Shown here: positions 1,433 through 12,919 of the stretch, in pieces
Layout: every line of letters starts with the position of its first letter
Numbering within the stretch: position 1 is the stretch's first letter
From: Tengunoibacter tsumagoiensis
GTDB lineage: Bacteria > Chloroflexota > Ktedonobacteria > Ktedonobacterales > Ktedonobacteraceae
NCBI RefSeq assembly: GCF_003967535.1
Contig: NZ_BIFR01000001.1
Span: 3,967,001-4,031,000, forward strand
Reading direction: 5' to 3'
DNA length: 64,000 bases
The notes under the pieces: generated by a model
The model's input: the letters and a program-made list of their open reading frames with translations, nothing else
Told to the model about the DNA's origin: nothing
Databases searched by the model: none
Program-made: the position numbers and the translations under genes

Positions 1433-1816
1433 TTACCTCATCCGCCGGAGTTGAAGGCGAAGATGGCTCCCTCCCGGCACAAGCCCCACTGGCAGCACCT
1501 CAATGATCTCATATTTTGCTGAGGCGGCCACCGCACTGGCGTTGGCCGTTGCAGTATCAGCAATATACACTGCACCGGTGAAATTTGTACCCAGGGGGGC
1601 AAGTAACCACGTATCTGTACTTTGTGGAAGCGGCTGACCTGTCGCACTCAAGATCTGAGGCTCTCTATTCTGCTCAGCTCGCATAATGACCTGAAGCAGG
1701 CTATAGCTGTAGGCCACACCCGTTCGATACACGACAACAACTGGACGCTGGCGACCAGCAAAGCTTCGATTGATCAATTGGAGGATCCGTTGCGCTTTTC
1801 GATCATCTAGTGGCAT
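1433..1816 (-). CDS. Small protein coupled to the phage portal gene, unknown function
   Basis: A 127-residue soluble protein with no recognised domain. It has a predicted beta-rich middle (RPVVVVYRTG, DTWLLAPLGTNFTGAVYIADT) and a basic C-terminus (LRLQLRRMR). Its reading frame overlaps the end of the portal gene: an ATG at 1822-1820 forms an ATGA overlap with the portal stop, and another ATG at 1816 lies 6 bases after GGAG, which is why I chose it. The overlap implies translational coupling, so the protein probably acts with the portal protein. By position it could be a head-tail or neck component, but nothing in the sequence proves that. Confidence 0.6.
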   Translation of the reverse strand: MPLDDRKAQRILQLINRSFAGRQRPVVVVYRTGVAYSYSLLQVIMRAEQNREPQILSATGQPLPQSTDTWLLAPLGTNFTGAVYIADTATANASAVAASAKYEIIEVLPVGLVPGGSHLRLQLRRMR

Positions 1817-1818
1817 GC

Positions 1819-3195
1819 TCATCTCCGTTTCTGATCGCCAAGCCATACTCGCTCTCGCTCATCATGCAGGTCAATCTCTTCATCAAGACACTGAAACAAA
1901 AGCCGCATCGCAGTCTCATCACTAATCCAACCCTGCTGCTTTGCCTGAGTCAGACCACCCATCAGAAGTTGTGTTGCACTGGCAAGCGTCTGATGGTCAG
2001 CCGTGTCGATCTGCGGAAAGAGAATCTCATAGTCTGTTGCAAGTGTATTTGATAGACGGTGAGCCTTCTGCGCCTCTAGAATAACCCGATCAAGAATGGT
2101 CCTCAAGAGGGCGCGCAGGATATGCTGACGACGCTGAAATTTAAGAAGGGTTGGTAGCCCCATCTCTGCCGCCGTCGCCCGATTCCCATAATTTCCATCT
2201 GAGAGATAATGCTCCGGAAGTTGTGCACCAACGGCCAGCATCAATTTTAACGCACGTCCGTCGGCTTCAGCCTCGTTCGCATTGATCTCTGGGCGGACCG
2301 CAGACCATTTCTCTGCCTCGTTATGAATGATAATGCTGCCTGGTTCTGGTGGATAGGCGTATTCCATCTTCTTGCGATCAATCGCTTTCTTATCTGCCCC
2401 CTGCAACTGAACATCCCACAAGAAGGCGGACTTGTATTTATTAATGCGGACCCGATCCGTCAACCAGTCCTTATACCGTCTCAACCAGGGGAGAAGCGTC
2501 GCCAGATCGCTTTTTCCTCGTTTTGCATTCGAGACCTTGTTGATGCAGAACTGTACCACGTCACTGCCAGCGAGCAACCATTCACCCTCAGTATTCAGGC
2601 TCCTCTGTACATCTGTGGCTGTTGGCAGGACCACTGCCGGGCCAATCGGCCTCAGATGAAAGCGCATCGGGGTCTCGATATCTTCTGGATCTGTCTCAAT
2701 CTGGTCAATAATTGAAGGATCAATCTGACGTATTTTGACCTTCCCATTCAAACGATTGATATAAAAACGGACAAACTGCTCTCCATAGAGGGAAAGTTCA
2801 GTACACAATGAATACACTCGTGTATCCATATGATTATCGGGATCGTTCCAAAAATCCTGCAAAATCTGCTGAACGACTGGTTCGCTGGCTGTAATACTGA
2901 CCCCTTTCCCAAGCACAAAACTGGTGGTGATCTCAATAATGGCAAAAGCAATAGGGTTCGCATTGTAAGCTTCGTAACAGGCATTATGAATCTCGAGATA
3001 GGTCGAAGGCATCACATCTTTCATCGACCAATTATCCGACAGACGACGCCAATAATAGTCCTCTTCCCCACCAGTTGCCAAACGGCCCCAATACTGATCT
3101 TCCTGGGTACAGCCTGTTGGAGAAGAAAGCTGTTCTTGAATCGATGAAAACACCCCACGTGTGCCGTGATGGCGCCAGAATGAGAGAAATGACAT
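1819..3195 (-). CDS. Phage-type portal protein, solitary
   Basis: A 458-residue protein with the layout of tailed-phage portal proteins. Residues about 75-95 contain YNANPIAFAIIEITTSFVLG, followed by the LSLYGEQFVRFY and IRQIDPSIIDQIETDPED segments typical of the portal clip and stem core. Then come GKSDLATLLPWLRRYKDW, a PPEPGSIIIHNEAEKW strand, and PEHYLSDGNYGNRATAAEMG. In phages this protein forms the dodecameric DNA channel at one capsid vertex. The start at 3195 is set by AGGAG 8 bases upstream and by a promoter at 3279-3307, which excludes the upstream ATG at 3276. No terminase, capsid, protease or tail gene is nearby, and the flanking genes are ordinary chromosomal ones. It is a prophage remnant or a domesticated gene; the frame is undamaged. 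Confidence 0.85.
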   Translation of the reverse strand: MSFLSFWRHHGTRGVFSSIQEQLSSPTGCTQEDQYWGRLATGGEEDYYWRRLSDNWSMKDVMPSTYLEIHNACYEAYNANPIAFAIIEITTSFVLGKGVSITASEPVVQQILQDFWNDPDNHMDTRVYSLCTELSLYGEQFVRFYINRLNGKVKIRQIDPSIIDQIETDPEDIETPMRFHLRPIGPAVVLPTATDVQRSLNTEGEWLLAGSDVVQFCINKVSNAKRGKSDLATLLPWLRRYKDWLTDRVRINKYKSAFLWDVQLQGADKKAIDRKKMEYAYPPEPGSIIIHNEAEKWSAVRPEINANEAEADGRALKLMLAVGAQLPEHYLSDGNYGNRATAAEMGLPTLLKFQRRQHILRALLRTILDRVILEAQKAHRLSNTLATDYEILFPQIDTADHQTLASATQLLMGGLTQAKQQGWISDETAMRLLFQCLDEEIDLHDERERVWLGDQKRR

Positions 3196-3278
3196 AGGAT
3201 AGACTCCTGAAAAAAGGGGGGAACGGAGCTCCGAGAAATGTAGAGGAGGGAAGTTCTCAAACAAGAGGATATACAATC

Positions 3279-3307
3279 ATATTACACTTTTTTACGTACA
3301 TTGTCAA
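3279..3307 (-). promoter_or_regulatory. Strong sigma-70-type promoter of the portal gene
   Basis: On the minus strand a perfect TTGACA (complement of 3302-3307) and TAATAT (complement of 3279-3284) are separated by exactly 17 bases. Transcription would begin near 3272, about 77 bases before the portal start codon. Confidence 0.65.
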
Positions 3308-6970: not shown

Positions 6971-8887
6971 CTAGCCCAACACTTCTCGCACTTTAGCAGC
7001 TAGCTCATCCAGGTCGAAAGGTTTGGGCAAGAAGGCAAAACCTTTATCCAGTACAAAGTTCTGGCTGATCTGATTGGCCTGATAGCCACTGACAAAGAGG
7101 AAACGCGTCTCTGGTCTCCGCTCTGAGATGGCATTGTAGAGCTCTTTACCTTTCATTTTAGGCGTCATCAGGTCGGAAACGACAAGAGCAATCTCCTGTT
7201 CACGCTCCTGGAAAAGTTGCCAGCCCTCAAATCCATCCGAAGCGCTCACTACGGTATATCCATATTCCCCTAAAGCCTCTTCCATTAAACACCGCAGATC
7301 TGGATCATCTTCAACGACCAGAATGACTTCGTTTCCACCCTGTAATGTCTCAATATCTCGACGCTCTGCTACTATAGGGGTGATCTGCTGCGCAGAGGCT
7401 TCAACAGTAGGTAGATAGAGTGTAAAAGTGGTTCCTTCCCCTGGAACGCTTTCAACATCAATAAATCCATTATGCTGGCCAATAATACCATGCACCATTG
7501 AGAGGCCTAAACCTGTCCCTTTGCCAATCTCTTTCGTAGTAAAAAATGGTTCGAAGATCTGCGCCTTTGTAGCCTCATCCATGCCAATCCCGGTATCCTG
7601 TACCGAGATCTGCACATAGTAAGGTGCCTCTAAAGGCGTCCGACTTTTCTGCTGAATCATCTCTCGTGCCACGTTTGCGGTTCGAATAATCAGTTTGCCG
7701 CCTTCAGGCATGGCATCATGTGCATTCACACACAGGTTCATTAAGACCTGTTCCATCTGGCCAGGATCAACATAGACTGTTTTTAGATCTGACTCAGGTT
7801 CAAAGGTGAAGTCAATATGGTCTTCAAGGATCTTACTTAAAAAGCTTAATAAGTTATCAACAACGACGTTTAGATTAACATTCGTTGGCTCTAACATCTG
7901 GCGACGCGAAAAGGCAAGCAATTGCTGCGTCATTCGCGCGGCGCGACCGCCAATCTCGTAAATACGCGATAGATCATTATAGAGCGGATGGCTGGTCGTG
8001 ATACGAGCCAGGCCACGGCTTGAATAACCGAGGATTCCCCCCAGCATGTTATTAAAATCATGCGCAATTCCACTTACAAGCAGACCCACACTCTCCAGAC
8101 GTTGCGCCTGTTGAAGCTGATTGGCAAGCTTTCTGCGCTCGGTGATGTCAAAGATATAGCCTTTGATCTCGCTTAATCTTCCTTGCTCATCAAAAGTACC
8201 TACGACGTTCTCAACCACATAGAGGAGATGCCCATCTCTGCGCTTCATCTCTATCTCATGATAGTTCAATCTCTTCTCACGCATCAATTTATCCAGGAAA
8301 AGCTGGTAGTGATCATGATGGCAATAGAGCTCGCGCATGTTGGCCCCCAGGGCCTCTTCCTCGGTGGTAAAACCAAAGATACGCAAAAAGGCTGCATTAC
8401 AGGTGCGCAATTCGCCCTCAGGAGTGGCAGCAAAAATTGCGGTCAGCCCTTGCTCGAAGATCTCTCGATACCGCTCTTCAGAGGCTCGCAGTTGCTCAAT
8501 AGCCTGCTCATACTGCCTCTGTAGACGTGCTCGTTCCAGACTTTCGTGGACCGCCTGCGGCAAGCGATCAAGATGGCTTTTCAAGATATAGTTGCTAAGG
8601 CCTGAACGCAGACCCTCCACCGCGACTTCTTCACTTCCTGTTCCTGTTACCATGAGGACAGGCACTTCTGGATAGCGCAATTTCACCTGGCTGAGCACGT
8701 GCAATCCATTGGTCCAGTTTAACTGATAGTCTGTGAGTACAATGTCAAAATATTCCTCGGTTAAGCTCTCATCCAGCCGCTCTGCCCGATCCACTTGCAC
8801 AAATTCTGCCTCCGGAAACTCTCTACGTAACCGAAGTACAACCAGCTCACGATCAGCCGGACTATCATCAATAATTAAGAATCTCAC
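6971..8887 (-). CDS. Hybrid histidine kinase: receiver-PAS-kinase-receiver
   Basis: About 638 residues in four parts. An N-terminal receiver has FLIIDDSPADRE and a phospho-acceptor Asp in IVLTDYQLN. A PAS domain follows (about 135-255, from RYREIFEQGLTAIF). The kinase core has H-box GIAHDFNNMLGG, N-box LMNLCVNAHDAMPEGG, G1 DTGIGM and G2 GKGTGLGLSMVHG. The C-terminal receiver has VVEDDPDLR, Asp in VVSDLMTPKMKG and Lys in LPKPFD. The HDFNNML box marks the cytosolic kinase type of phosphorelay proteins. No membrane segment is present. I favour a GTG start at 8887 because GGAGAG lies 5 bases upstream; an ATG at 8932 adds 15 poorly conserved residues. It lies 138 bases downstream of the phytochrome signalling genes and may be part of that operon. 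Confidence 0.88.
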   Translation of the reverse strand: MRFLIIDDSPADRELVVLRLRREFPEAEFVQVDRAERLDESLTEEYFDIVLTDYQLNWTNGLHVLSQVKLRYPEVPVLMVTGTGSEEVAVEGLRSGLSNYILKSHLDRLPQAVHESLERARLQRQYEQAIEQLRASEERYREIFEQGLTAIFAATPEGELRTCNAAFLRIFGFTTEEEALGANMRELYCHHDHYQLFLDKLMREKRLNYHEIEMKRRDGHLLYVVENVVGTFDEQGRLSEIKGYIFDITERRKLANQLQQAQRLESVGLLVSGIAHDFNNMLGGILGYSSRGLARITTSHPLYNDLSRIYEIGGRAARMTQQLLAFSRRQMLEPTNVNLNVVVDNLLSFLSKILEDHIDFTFEPESDLKTVYVDPGQMEQVLMNLCVNAHDAMPEGGKLIIRTANVAREMIQQKSRTPLEAPYYVQISVQDTGIGMDEATKAQIFEPFFTTKEIGKGTGLGLSMVHGIIGQHNGFIDVESVPGEGTTFTLYLPTVEASAQQITPIVAERRDIETLQGGNEVILVVEDDPDLRCLMEEALGEYGYTVVSASDGFEGWQLFQEREQEIALVVSDLMTPKMKGKELYNAISERRPETRFLFVSGYQANQISQNFVLDKGFAFLPKPFDLDELAAKVREVLG

Positions 8888-9025
8888 AGGCTCTCTCCAG
8901 CATTCTGTATCTTTACATAGACCATTGGTCAATGAACGTTCTCTAATCTCAGCCTTTAGAGTTAATACTCTTCAAGACATTGTTCAGTTTCGCTCTGCTC
9001 CTTTCAGAGTCACAACAAGCTCTCT

Positions 9026-10144
9026 TTAGCCCGTCCCTGGCAGCCTGACAAAGAAGCGACTTCCTTGCTCTGGTCCGGGCTCAACCCAGACCTGCCCTCC
9101 CAGCAGTTCTGTTGCTTTCTTGACAATAGCCAGTCCAATGCCTGTTCCCGGATAAAGATCATCTCCATGCAAGCGTTGAAAGATGGCAAAGATACGCTCA
9201 TACTGCTTCGGCGGAATGCCAATTCCATTGTCCTCCACGCAGATTGTGACAAAGCTTTTCTCTTCTCGCGCACTGATCTTGATCTCTGCTATTACTCCAG
9301 GTGGCACGTATGTCAGTGCGTTATCAATCAAGTTCATAAAGATCTGGTTGATGAGTGTCGGATCTCCGTAAACCATTGGCATTCGTTCATCAAGGGTGAT
9401 GCTGGCATCCTCACCATTCGCTTGTCTACGACAGTTCTCAATGACCTGAAGTAAGCTATAGCGCAACATAACTGGCTTGAGGCGCACTGCCCGATGCTCA
9501 ATCCGTGTGTAACTCAATAGATCATCGATGATACGATCCATCTGCAAACAGGCTCGAACGATATTGCTGACATAATGCTTACCAGTCTCATCAAGATCTG
9601 TGCTGTAGTCGTTTGCAACAATCTGTGAAAAACCTGTAATTGCACGCAAAGGAGCCCGAAGATCATGAGCCAATGCATAAGCAAAGGCCTGAATCTCCTG
9701 GTTCTTTTTCTCTAACTCACGGCGATGCTGCTCCAGATCTCGCCTCATCGCTGTCCGCTCAATGGCATTGTGAATTGCTCGCAGGAGATTGCCCGGTGTC
9801 ATCTCGGCTTTGACAAGATAGTCTTGCGCTCCACTCTTTATCGCCTGGAGTGCTGTTCCTTCGTCCTGTAAGCCTGTTAGCATGACGACGGCATAAGGGA
9901 CCAGGCCATTACTCTCGTCCGCAAGCTCGGTCAGAAACTCTAAACCGTCGATATCTGGGAGATTATAGTCCAGTAGAATACAGTCTGGCTGTACGGTACG
10001 ACACAGGATAAGCCCTTTCTCTCCCGTTTCTTCTTCATAGAATTGATACTGATAGTCTGTATCCTGGAGGAGATAGCGCCGAAACACTTCTCGATCTTCT
10101 GGATTGTCTTCAATAAGACAGATAGTTGGATTCTTCTCTGTCAT
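9026..10144 (-). CDS. Receiver-histidine kinase hybrid
   Basis: A cytosolic protein of 372 residues. The N-terminal receiver (about 1-125) has CLIEDNPEDRE, Asp in CILLDYNLPDIDG and Lys in DYLVKAEM. A coiled-coil linker (LEQHRRELEKKNQEIQAF) leads to HisKA with H-box ALAHDLRAPLRAITG. The ATPase domain has NLIDNALTYVPPG, DNGIGIP and GTGIGLAIVKKATELLGG. The gene begins in a TGATG overlap with the receiver gene upstream, with a GGGG Shine-Dalgarno-like stretch, so the two are translationally coupled. The receiver-kinase order suggests it takes phosphate from the phytochrome branch and relays or tunes it. The extra 14 residues of a longer frame from 10186 would run into the neighbouring gene. Confidence 0.88.
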   Translation of the reverse strand: MTEKNPTICLIEDNPEDREVFRRYLLQDTDYQYQFYEEETGEKGLILCRTVQPDCILLDYNLPDIDGLEFLTELADESNGLVPYAVVMLTGLQDEGTALQAIKSGAQDYLVKAEMTPGNLLRAIHNAIERTAMRRDLEQHRRELEKKNQEIQAFAYALAHDLRAPLRAITGFSQIVANDYSTDLDETGKHYVSNIVRACLQMDRIIDDLLSYTRIEHRAVRLKPVMLRYSLLQVIENCRRQANGEDASITLDERMPMVYGDPTLINQIFMNLIDNALTYVPPGVIAEIKISAREEKSFVTICVEDNGIGIPPKQYERIFAIFQRLHGDDLYPGTGIGLAIVKKATELLGGQVWVEPGPEQGSRFFVRLPGTG

Positions 10145-10599
10145 CACGTCCCCGCATTGTCTGGTAACATGACTACCCCAAACCAATAATGGTTTAACAT
10201 CTCTACTGCCTCTAACAATTTTTCTACCGTCATTGGCTTCAAAATATAGCTATTGGCTCCTTCCTGGAAACAAATCTCAATATCCTTGGGATCTGATGAG
10301 GTAGTCCATACTATGACTGGAATCATTTTCAATGTGTCATCTCGCTTGATATGACTTAACACTTCATGCCCATCCATTAAGGTAAGGTTCAGGTCAAGCA
10401 AAATGATTGCCGGGCGCGGATACTGCTGCACATCACTATATTTTCCACGTTGATACAGGAGGTCCAATGCTTCGTCGCCATCTTTACAGCGAAGCGTTGG
10501 AGTGTTGATAGATAATTTTTGTAGTGCCCACTCCAGTATCTCAAAATCTTCGTCATTATCCTCGACAATTAAAAGTGGATATGCAGAACTTCTTCTCAT
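10144..10599 (-). CDS. Single-domain response regulator (Rcp1-like)
   Basis: A 151-residue stand-alone receiver with no output domain. It has the acidic pocket LLIVEDNDED, phospho-acceptor Asp in IILLDLNLTLMDG, a switch Thr in VIVWTTSSD and the conserved Lys in YILKPM. The long insert LLYQRGKYSDVQQYPRP between the third helix and strand is characteristic of Rcp1-type partners of phytochrome kinases. It lies 7 bases downstream of the phytochrome gene and is the likely first phospho-acceptor. The start at 10599 has AAAGGT 9 bases upstream; the longer frame to 10704 only overlaps the phytochrome gene. Confidence 0.88.
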   Translation of the reverse strand: MRRSSAYPLLIVEDNDEDFEILEWALQKLSINTPTLRCKDGDEALDLLYQRGKYSDVQQYPRPAIILLDLNLTLMDGHEVLSHIKRDDTLKMIPVIVWTTSSDPKDIEICFQEGANSYILKPMTVEKLLEAVEMLNHYWFGVVMLPDNAGT

Positions 10600-10606
10600 T
10601 GTGTTT

Positions 10607-12919
10607 TTACCTTTCAACAAGGGTGAAGTAGAAGGTGCTCCCTCTGCCCGGCTCTGATTCCACCCATATGTTTCCACTGTGGCGCTCCACAATGCGCTTG
10701 ACAATGGTTAAGCCTGCACCCGTCCCCCCTCCGAATGTATCACGACCATGCAAGCGTTTAAAAATGCGAAAGATCGAATCAAAATATTTCTCTCGTATGC
10801 CAATTCCGTTGTCCCGCACGTATAAGGTCACACGTCGCATCCCATCCTGCTCTTCCTCTGGCAGAGCCCCTATTTCAATCTCTTTCGCTGGTTTGTCGTT
10901 GTATTTGATGGCATTTGAGATCAGGTTGCTAAATATCTCACCAACCCGGATACGATCGCACCGTATGGTTGGTAAAGGCTCAATTAGATGCACCTGTACG
11001 CTGTCCTCTTCGATTCTTCCTCTTACCATCTCCAGGCTTCTCTGCACAACCTCGTTAAGATCCGTTTGAACAAACGCTAGTTCAACCCTCCCAACCCGTG
11101 AATAATGCAATAATGCATCGATCAGCTCTCCCATTCTGGCACTGAGTCGGGTTAATGTGGTTAATCTGGCTATGCCTGTTTCATCAAGCTGATCATGATA
11201 GTCTTCCTCTAATATAGAGACGTAGTTACTTATTCCGCGCAAAGGCTCTTTAAGATCATGTGAGACAATATATGCAAATGAATCAAGCTCTTGATTACTC
11301 TCCTCCAGACGCTCGTTCAGGCTGGCGAGTTCTTCGTTGCGATGCAAAAGGAGGCTCCGCAATACACGATCCACGATCGCACTGCGTAAACTTAGGGCCG
11401 CCTCTATTTCACACCTTTTCCAGGCGGTTGCTGTTCTCTGAACAGTCTGACTCCAGGCTGCAAATGAGGTCCGTGGATGCAAGATGATCCCCTGCTGGTC
11501 GCTCTGCATAGGCTTCTCTGGATCACCTCCCCATGTCACCTGCTGAATGATCTCTGGACGAAACCAGAGCAGGTAGCTATTCTGTAATGCTGAGATGGAG
11601 ATTACCAGTACACCACTGGCAATCTCTTTAATGCTCTCCCCTTCTTCCCATAGGGTCGCGAGGGCATTGGTTGCAAAGAACTCTTCAGCATGTAACTGTG
11701 GCCTTACCCACTCTAATAGACGTAGTCCCGTCGCTTGATCAGGTACTTTTCCTGATGCCAAATAACGGTCCGCTAGATAAATGGCCACTCCCTGGGCCTC
11801 TACAAGTTGAAGAATCCGTTCGGACTGTGCTTGCAATACATCTTCAACCCGTTCCGTTTGCAGCAAGAGATCCAATAAGATCGACTGCTTTGTTTTGACC
11901 TCCATCTCATACATGTTATCAGCAAGCTCTTCTCTGGCTGCTATCTGTAGAGAGAGGATCTGGCCCAGAAATTCACAGGCTGCACGTGTGATATAAGGTA
12001 CATAGCGCTCGGTGGCATGATGGCAGGAGATTAATCCCCACAACTGCTGGTTTTTCAAAATAGAGATAGACATCGAGGCTCCTACACCCATGTTCTTCAG
12101 GTATTGAATATGCATGGGTGAGACGCTCCGTAACACTGATCCGCTAAGATCCAGTGGGCCTGGGTTATCGACTGAAAGTAATGCCGCCGGTTGATAGGCA
12201 ACGTTGGCAATCAGTCGTAACCAGTTATGCCGATACAGTTCGCGAGCCTGTTGGGGTATATCGGAAGCTGGATAGTGCAGACCAAGAAATGGCTCTAAGC
12301 CCTCTCTTTTCGCTTCTGCAATGACTTCTCCATGCCAGTCAGGATGAAATTTATAGATCATAACGCGATCAAAGCCCGTCAATTCACGGACTAAATCAGC
12401 TGCTGCCTGACTTAAGATAGGAAGATCTCTGGCCCGCTGAAGCACTGCTGTGGAGGATCGCATGAGATGATAAAAATTAGAAAAAGGATTCTCTATTTGG
12501 GGGTTGAAAGGTTCCAGTTCGAGGATAAGCCGCGTACCTATACGATGAATGATCCCATCAAATATCTCTGGTTGAGGTGTACTGTGTACGGTGATCTGTA
12601 ATGGATTGAGCGCCTCAAGATCCGGCTGCAGTCTTCTCTCTTGCAATAACTGGACCTGTTGAGGGTCAAGACAGCTCTCCAATGGTTGATTGAGCAGCTC
12701 CTCAGGTTCTCGCGCCAGGAATGCCCTGGCATTATTGCTAATCTGTACAATGCGCAGATCCGGCTCTGCCAGGACGAGCAAAACTCCATGAGGTTGAATC
12801 GCGCCAGGGATATGAATCAATTCTCGATCGCAATTTGTCAGGTCAATCTTTTCACTACTAAATTCACTTTCCGCTATTCTATTCTCATTTTGCCCGTACA
12901 CGCGAACACTCCTACTCAT
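10607..12919 (-). CDS. bphP: Bacteriophytochrome histidine kinase
   Basis: A 770-residue red/far-red light sensor kinase of PAS-GAF-PHY-HisKA-ATPase design. Cys30 in LTNCDRELIHIPGAIQPHG sits where bacteriophytochromes attach biliverdin. The GAF domain carries the conserved PASDIP motif near residue 220 and GFDRVMIYKF. The PHY tongue has the WGG-P element and PRTSF. The kinase part has H-box VSHDLKEPLRG, NLISNAIKY, DNGIGI and GAGLTIVKRIVERHSG. All chromophore-pocket signatures are present, so it should be functional if biliverdin is made; no heme oxygenase gene is in the window. It heads an operon with a receiver and a receiver-kinase hybrid. A promoter at 12960-12988 lies about 40 bases upstream. 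Confidence 0.95.
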   Translation of the reverse strand: MSRSVRVYGQNENRIAESEFSSEKIDLTNCDRELIHIPGAIQPHGVLLVLAEPDLRIVQISNNARAFLAREPEELLNQPLESCLDPQQVQLLQERRLQPDLEALNPLQITVHSTPQPEIFDGIIHRIGTRLILELEPFNPQIENPFSNFYHLMRSSTAVLQRARDLPILSQAAADLVRELTGFDRVMIYKFHPDWHGEVIAEAKREGLEPFLGLHYPASDIPQQARELYRHNWLRLIANVAYQPAALLSVDNPGPLDLSGSVLRSVSPMHIQYLKNMGVGASMSISILKNQQLWGLISCHHATERYVPYITRAACEFLGQILSLQIAAREELADNMYEMEVKTKQSILLDLLLQTERVEDVLQAQSERILQLVEAQGVAIYLADRYLASGKVPDQATGLRLLEWVRPQLHAEEFFATNALATLWEEGESIKEIASGVLVISISALQNSYLLWFRPEIIQQVTWGGDPEKPMQSDQQGIILHPRTSFAAWSQTVQRTATAWKRCEIEAALSLRSAIVDRVLRSLLLHRNEELASLNERLEESNQELDSFAYIVSHDLKEPLRGISNYVSILEEDYHDQLDETGIARLTTLTRLSARMGELIDALLHYSRVGRVELAFVQTDLNEVVQRSLEMVRGRIEEDSVQVHLIEPLPTIRCDRIRVGEIFSNLISNAIKYNDKPAKEIEIGALPEEEQDGMRRVTLYVRDNGIGIREKYFDSIFRIFKRLHGRDTFGGGTGAGLTIVKRIVERHSGNIWVESEPGRGSTFYFTLVER

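Follow-up and report, generated by a model that had tools for sequence, protein, structure and literature searches.

Why does an intact phage portal gene lie among ordinary chromosomal genes of Tengunoibacter tsumagoiensis, and does it stand alone? The window, i.e. the whole stretch of 64,000 nucleotides that was analysed (G000:C1:3967001-4031000 of the 7.7 Mb genome G000), carries this gene near its left edge, and a preliminary description had taken it for a solitary, undamaged and possibly domesticated portal gene with a strong promoter of its own. The features at this place, in window coordinates, are as follows:

1433..1846, minus strand, a 137-codon gene overlapping the end of the portal gene by 28 bases
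1819..3195, minus strand, portal gene, likely start ATG 3195 (phrog and Pfam matches, 14-row alignment)
3279..3307, minus strand, sigma-70-like promoter TTGACA-17-TAATAT before the portal gene (10/12 consensus)

The portal frame is open from 3276 to 1819 on the minus strand (485 codons if counted from TTG 3276), and ATG 3195 is the likelier start because the promoter occupies 3307-3279. Its protein matched the portal family phrog_10963 (E 9.6e-43) and phrog_64 (3.7e-7), as well as Pfam SPP1_portal (4.6e-5, a score slightly below the Pfam cut-off), confirming a real and undamaged frame; the coupled small gene is present as well, and its homologues were found in the same clusters of relatives and in phage contigs. 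The flanks look as ordinary as had been described, with DUF3311 and sodium:solute symporter genes on one side and, on the other, a gene of 330 codons for which Pfam gave no match, and a tblastn of 15 proteins of the module detailed below against the whole window matched only the portal and the 137-codon gene, in line with the earlier statement that no terminase, capsid or tail gene lies inside it. Elsewhere in the window (6971-12919), four adjacent two-component signalling genes were noticed by eye from their translations, one of them a large phytochrome-like histidine kinase.

As for the strong promoter, the consensus-like site exists, but its strength is less certain: the first 6 kb hold 14 promoter-like sites versus 8.1 ± 2.9 in shuffles, and the score of the portal promoter was equalled in 10% of 200 shuffles of the portal upstream sequence, so the promoter alone is suggestive only. 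A TTGACA-17-TATACT site precedes the portal in G001, G013 and G007 and the capsid operon in G000, and no comparable portal promoter was seen in the six other genomes tried. A search for a common regulatory word found an A/T-rich 9-mer upstream of three of the four G000 loci. Directly after the −10 box of the portal promoter in G013 (L006) and G001 (L004), a nearly perfect 12-base inverted repeat was observed by eye that differs between these species by a paired change, as in an operator or a hairpin.

The claim that the portal is solitary did not survive inspection of the region to the left of the window, where the preliminary description had itself located, beforehand, the evidence that would speak against it. 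The 15.4 kb left of the portal contain, mixed with host genes, a terminase, a protease-capsid fusion, one connector-like and one tube-fold-like gene; at 240 kb from the portal there is also a gene for a tail hub. These genes are listed below by their positions in L002 (G000:C1:3949000-3968900, 20 kb on the left; window coordinate = L002 position − 18001, negative for all module genes there):

L002:4472-5947, minus strand, large terminase (phrog_5909, 2.8e-10; Terminase_6C, 6e-10, above cut-off)
L002:10393-10830, plus strand, gp145
L002:10830-12842, plus strand, prohead protease-capsid fusion (phrog_29592, 2e-101; Phage_capsid_4, 1e-43)
L002:12862-13440, gp192
L002:13504-13830, gp108
L002:13913-14515, gp200
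L002:14538-15674, gp378, connector-like (phrog_8040, 0.0017; phrog_511, 1.5e-7)
L002:15726-16172, gp148, tube-fold-like (weak model, pLDDT 65.8)
G000 C1:3726133-3728172, minus strand, gp700, tail hub, 240 kb from the portal

The hub was first recognised from compact clusters in relatives and then located in G000. Its C-terminal half matched the phage tail family phrog_1887, and its structural model (pLDDT 84.6) matched tail hubs and injection-system spikes (3e-19) and Mu gp44 (1e-14); the N-terminal half appears propeller-like, judging from its strands and from matches to a putative neuraminidase and a designed propeller. The gp148 model resembles baseplate and tube proteins, an assignment kept tentative because the model is weak. 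In the terminase, acidic residues that we take to be of Walker type and of nuclease type are invariant in 18/18 aligned rows. No tape-measure gene was recognised among the module genes, so the tail may be short or absent, and the holin and endolysin of other clusters had no match at the G000 module loci. The GC and GC3 of the G000 module genes resemble those of host genes, with a slightly higher GC3 in gp108.

The genes travel together among relatives, and presence beyond one strain is thereby established. With G000 counted, the portal was matched in 21 of 41 genomes, the terminase and the connector each in 21 of 30, and the capsid and the hub each in 20 of 30; the same 20 related genomes hold all five (portal searched in 41, the others in 30), which rules out chance co-occurrence, and each of the five is single copy in G000. 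The stray matches outside the 20 are a portal in G017, a weak terminase in G025 and a weak connector in G037. The G017 portal (L013, G017:C1:3291346) is intact and followed by gp108-like and gp120-like genes, yet no terminase, capsid, connector or hub was matched in this genome. Across the class, the capsid was found in 24/47 genomes, namely 23/29 of the window's family (the other 6 having no match), 1/1 of family f3 and 0/17 of families f2 and f4 together; in a phylum sample it was found in 60/400, with lower scores outside the order. Among the carriers known by name are Thermogemmatispora, Dictyobacter, Ktedonobacter, Ktedonosporobacter, Ktedonospora and Thermosporothrix.

Eight genomes from five genera (G000, G001, G007, G009, G012, G013, G018 and G022, hereafter the scattered group) have the genes at separate places on the chromosome, the hub being 240 kb away in G000 and ∼2.2 Mb from the capsid in G022. 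The sites are shared: the terminase adjoins the same HEAT-repeat gene in 8/8 of these genomes, and the hub stands beside a hem-type operon and/or folD in 7/7 of those with enough flank (gene names by eye); in addition, the short hub contig of G001 matches that of G013, and the portal of G013 lies near the same symporter as in G000, a site not seen in G009. Portal, capsid, terminase, connector, gp148 and hub are present in all eight genomes and uninterrupted in 45 of the 48 cases, the three interruptions being an insertion in the G022 portal, a group I intron in the G009 capsid and a contig end in the G013 connector.

By concatenating the proteins, the scattered group was recovered as one branch apart from phages and other copies, with a support of 94/93 (just under the tool's star) in a tree of 25 rows, from which rows with <1900 filled columns and two distant contigs were left out, and in 92% of 200 bootstrap trees. 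A quick tree of 35 of the 39 concatenated rows gave the group a support of only 20, without resolving it, and placed a 5.6 kb IMG/VR contig inside. The module distances followed those of rpoB (r 0.97, p 0.0002, 28 pairs), more weakly with one genome per genus (r 0.75, p 0.06, 10 pairs). The dN/dS of nine genes, by Nei-Gojobori for pairs with dS <1 within two genera, was 0.010–0.123; pairs with dS ≥1 are left out of all dN/dS ranges given here. The alignments comprised the portal of 14/21 genomes (7 partial portals dropped), the capsid of 19/20 (G023 dropped), the terminase of 18/21 (G002, G004 and G025 dropped), the connector of 18/20 (G013 and G024 dropped), the hub of 19/20 (G016 dropped) and gp148 of 15/16 (G016 dropped); the capsid tree used 49/70 rows, with viral loci lacking a length label or shorter than 450 residues dropped. 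From sequence comparison, then, come the gene identities, the co-occurrence, the orthologous sites, the single branch and the purifying selection. Domestication of the scattered form is well supported by the low dN/dS, the orthologous chromosomal sites, the own branch and the host-following distances; what was suggested before for the portal alone would apply to a whole head-and-tail-tip module.

The eleven other genomes behave differently: their copies are compact or scattered in another manner, and in the tree they fall among phages. As one domestication, these copies were rejected by the AU test (single clade of eleven, p 0.0004; of ten, p 0.003), and no shared flanking genes were seen between their genera beyond apparent opposite-strand frames of the module itself. 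Their module and rpoB distances correlated at r 0.82 (p 0.0001), or r 0.55 (p 0.14) with one genome per genus, and dN/dS among them reached 0.226 (Nei-Gojobori). By rpoB, G000 is a near relative of genus g9, yet the module sequences of the two are far apart, and the module/rpoB ratio is 9.1 for G000-G008 versus a median of 2.8 within the scattered group, so the two kinds of copies do not simply reflect a single inheritance. The damaged copies, all outside the scattered group, comprise the capsid of G043, the portal and capsid of G023, the portal and hub of G016, a portal piece with five stops in G010, the terminases of G002 and G004, the connector of G024 and the portal of G021, the last cut by an element. 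For the module as a whole, this pattern recalls separate prophage remnants, with frequent integration leaving a slowly decaying defective copy in each genome and rearrangement scattering it; such an origin would suit the eleven copies that mix with phages, the rejection of their single clade and the damage in several of them, as well as the phage contigs that carry the same genes plus an integrase or resolvase. Unlinked genes at the same chromosomal sites in five genera contradict it for the scattered group, as do the one branch with host-like distances, the low dN/dS and the 45/48 uninterrupted frames, and we consider remnants an unlikely account.

Several interruptions recur at precise places. 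The portal of G022 is cut by a ∼41.6 kb element that begins with a large serine integrase (phrog_95) and has TTCTGACGGC at both junctions, whereas the cut in G021 precedes this position by about ten codons and has GGTAGGTGC at each junction; the G026 portal and a portal fragment in G002 are broken at roughly the position of the G021 cut, and a large serine recombinase was seen by eye beside the break in G021 and G026. Serine-recombinase elements thus sit precisely inside the portal at two sites ∼ten codons apart in several lineages (L016/L026, L018/L025, L019/L027, L022). A group II intron or split intein at the break was ruled out, since a large serine recombinase is encoded next to it, and Rfam over 14 loci gave a single sub-threshold group II match, located elsewhere. 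The precise insertions and the short repeated cores at both ends (where both were seen) would fit an excision switch, like the skin-type elements in sporulation genes; that some cells would regain an intact portal by excision and so start to make particles, in an undescribed viriform lineage of spore-forming Chloroflexota, is a decidedly speculative idea to which we give little credence. Near the end of the capsid gene, a group I intron (RF00028, above the gathering score) occupies the same codon in two genera (G009 L088:8477-8675; G004 L079:14615-14871). The terminases of G002 (L051) and G004 (L080 ∼7019), also of two genera, have in common a short insertion at the same codon that makes a stop, with the rest of the frame open, as by frameshifting or shared decay.

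The module in G000 differs from an intact prophage, which is a contiguous genome with an integrase. Host genes stand between the module genes of G000, and neither a Phage_integrase nor a Recombinase domain was found within ∼180 kb of the portal, capsid, terminase or hub; the nearest Phage_integrase domains lie ∼190 kb from the portal and ∼270 kb from the hub, and the G000 search found no Recombinase domain. These domain searches covered six of the eight scattered genomes (all but G001 and G007). By BLAST, four phage integrases or resolvases matched nothing in 26 loci of the scattered group other than the element inside the G022 portal, and nothing in 10 loci of the other group. In the three genomes examined of genus g13 (Thermogemmatispora), an integrase-domain frame lies 12–14 kb from the portal-capsid cluster; it is presumably a host Xer enzyme, since likely counterparts lie elsewhere in other genomes.

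Phage relatives were found in IMG/VR, with matches at 44 capsid and 21 portal loci. The portals of uncultivated phages on contigs of 46, 48, 39 and 30 kb are 62–65% and the capsids 60–64% identical to those of G000. On the 46 kb contig, the gene order is complete from portal to terminase; those of 39 and 30 kb show the same order at least from portal to hub, over the part examined, plus extra genes; the 48 kb contig keeps it to the hub with extra genes and departs thereafter. Unlike the scattered copies, which form their own branch, these phages carry the genes as a single block; a short way upstream of the portal lies a tyrosine integrase (46 and 39 kb) or, on the 48 kb contig, a resolvase-type recombinase. 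Directly before the hub, a small response-regulator-like gene was noticed by eye in phage contigs and one cluster (L171:14012-14485, L197:16682-17098, L193:20700-21197, L079:17187-17597). The closest phage record found, Microcystis phage Mae-JY22 (PP438414), has a portal 27.5% identical over 91% and a capsid 30% identical over 98% of the query, and differs in its annotated DUF3486, Gam and tape measure-like gene. Because related phages occur in metagenomes, resident copies might complement or serve infecting phages of the same family at no gain to the host; long purifying selection at unlinked loci not carried by the phage would, however, give the phage no benefit, and such a service to phages we find very hard to believe in.

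What would the scattered genes do? We favour, with moderate confidence, the view that an ancestor of these Ktedonobacteraceae domesticated a phage module, which works like a gene transfer agent (GTA). An ancestor of at least five genera would have taken a head-and-tail-tip module from a temperate phage, and the module would then have been inherited with the chromosome, its genes becoming spread over two to four separate sites. With the proteins that were kept, a cell could assemble a capsid, fill it with DNA through the portal, seal the head and attach the hub to another cell, and such a set of genes, for head assembly, packaging, head closure and docking, fits a GTA-like particle as the likeliest use: the terminase would package chromosomal DNA, probably in pieces too short to carry the complete gene set, and delivery to neighbour cells would fall to the hub. 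Particle assembly, host-DNA packaging and delivery are thus what we infer from the genes, and ‘working like a GTA’ is a reading that does not claim GTA membership.

The same genes might instead form a domesticated module that transfers no DNA between cells, a short-tailed head that kills or lyses rivals, disturbs infecting phages, or stores or exports DNA during sporulation. The lack of a recognised tape measure suits such a use, the propeller-like half of the modelled hub could bind a surface glycan, and transfer itself is a prediction from the genes. To our knowledge, terminase, portal and capsid protease are dispensable for a particle that kills, and their retention at low dN/dS points to DNA packaging; we leave this use a modest chance. 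Encapsulins, as far as we know, are shells without portal, terminase or prohead protease, whereas the capsid here carries a fused prohead protease and co-occurs with portal and terminase in the same 20 genomes. The likeness, an HK97-type shell protein, is that described in the available text of PMC8346489.

Returning to the GTA-like particle, three of the six features that define a GTA in the available text of PMC9662315 were seen, in the scattered group only. Caudoviricete-derived proteins, of the kind that form caudovirion-like particles, are indicated by sequence similarity of portal, terminase, protease-capsid and hub, which that definition accepts; full endogenisation, often at several loci, corresponds to the separate loci in G000 and G022; and mostly vertical inheritance with co-diversification to the orthologous sites, the single branch and the distances in the eight genomes, at the weaker correlation given above for one genome per genus (PMC9662315). 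Regarding a non-packageable own genome, another feature there, the G000 loci span ∼240 kb, more than a phage-sized head would hold, the head capacity in G000 being only assumed (PMC9662315). The two remaining features of that definition, a mostly random host-DNA content of the particles and delivery of this DNA to other cells, would be predictions for the present module, which has a hub gene that could serve the second (PMC9662315). By the same account, RcGTA (Rhodogtaviriformidae) and the Bartonella and Brachyspira GTAs are alike in being Caudoviricete-derived, endogenised and mostly vertically inherited, and the RcGTA genes are spread over five loci (PMC9662315). Unlike the known GTAs, the present module has its host in Chloroflexota, lacks a recognised tape-measure gene and is represented here by genes alone.

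A 2024 review names the GTAs of alphaproteobacteria, Bartonella, Brachyspira, Desulfovibrio and Methanococcus and regards as open the true prevalence of GTAs and their detection far from alphaproteobacteria; ‘Chloroflex’ does not occur in its main text as available (PMC11841831). Among the open-licence papers listed, none described, by its title or the beginning of its abstract, such a system in Ktedonobacteria or Chloroflexota, and the available text of the 2019 genome survey of the class, which reports large genomes and a complex life cycle, does not contain the words ‘phage’ and ‘capsid’ (PMC6497799). Cultured carriers exist (Thermogemmatispora, Dictyobacter, Ktedonobacter), so the system is directly testable. 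A ‘lone’ phage gene, as at this locus, can be part of a module whose members are hundreds of kilobases apart, and if particles form and carry host DNA, the module would represent a gene-transfer system that was domesticated independently in Chloroflexota.
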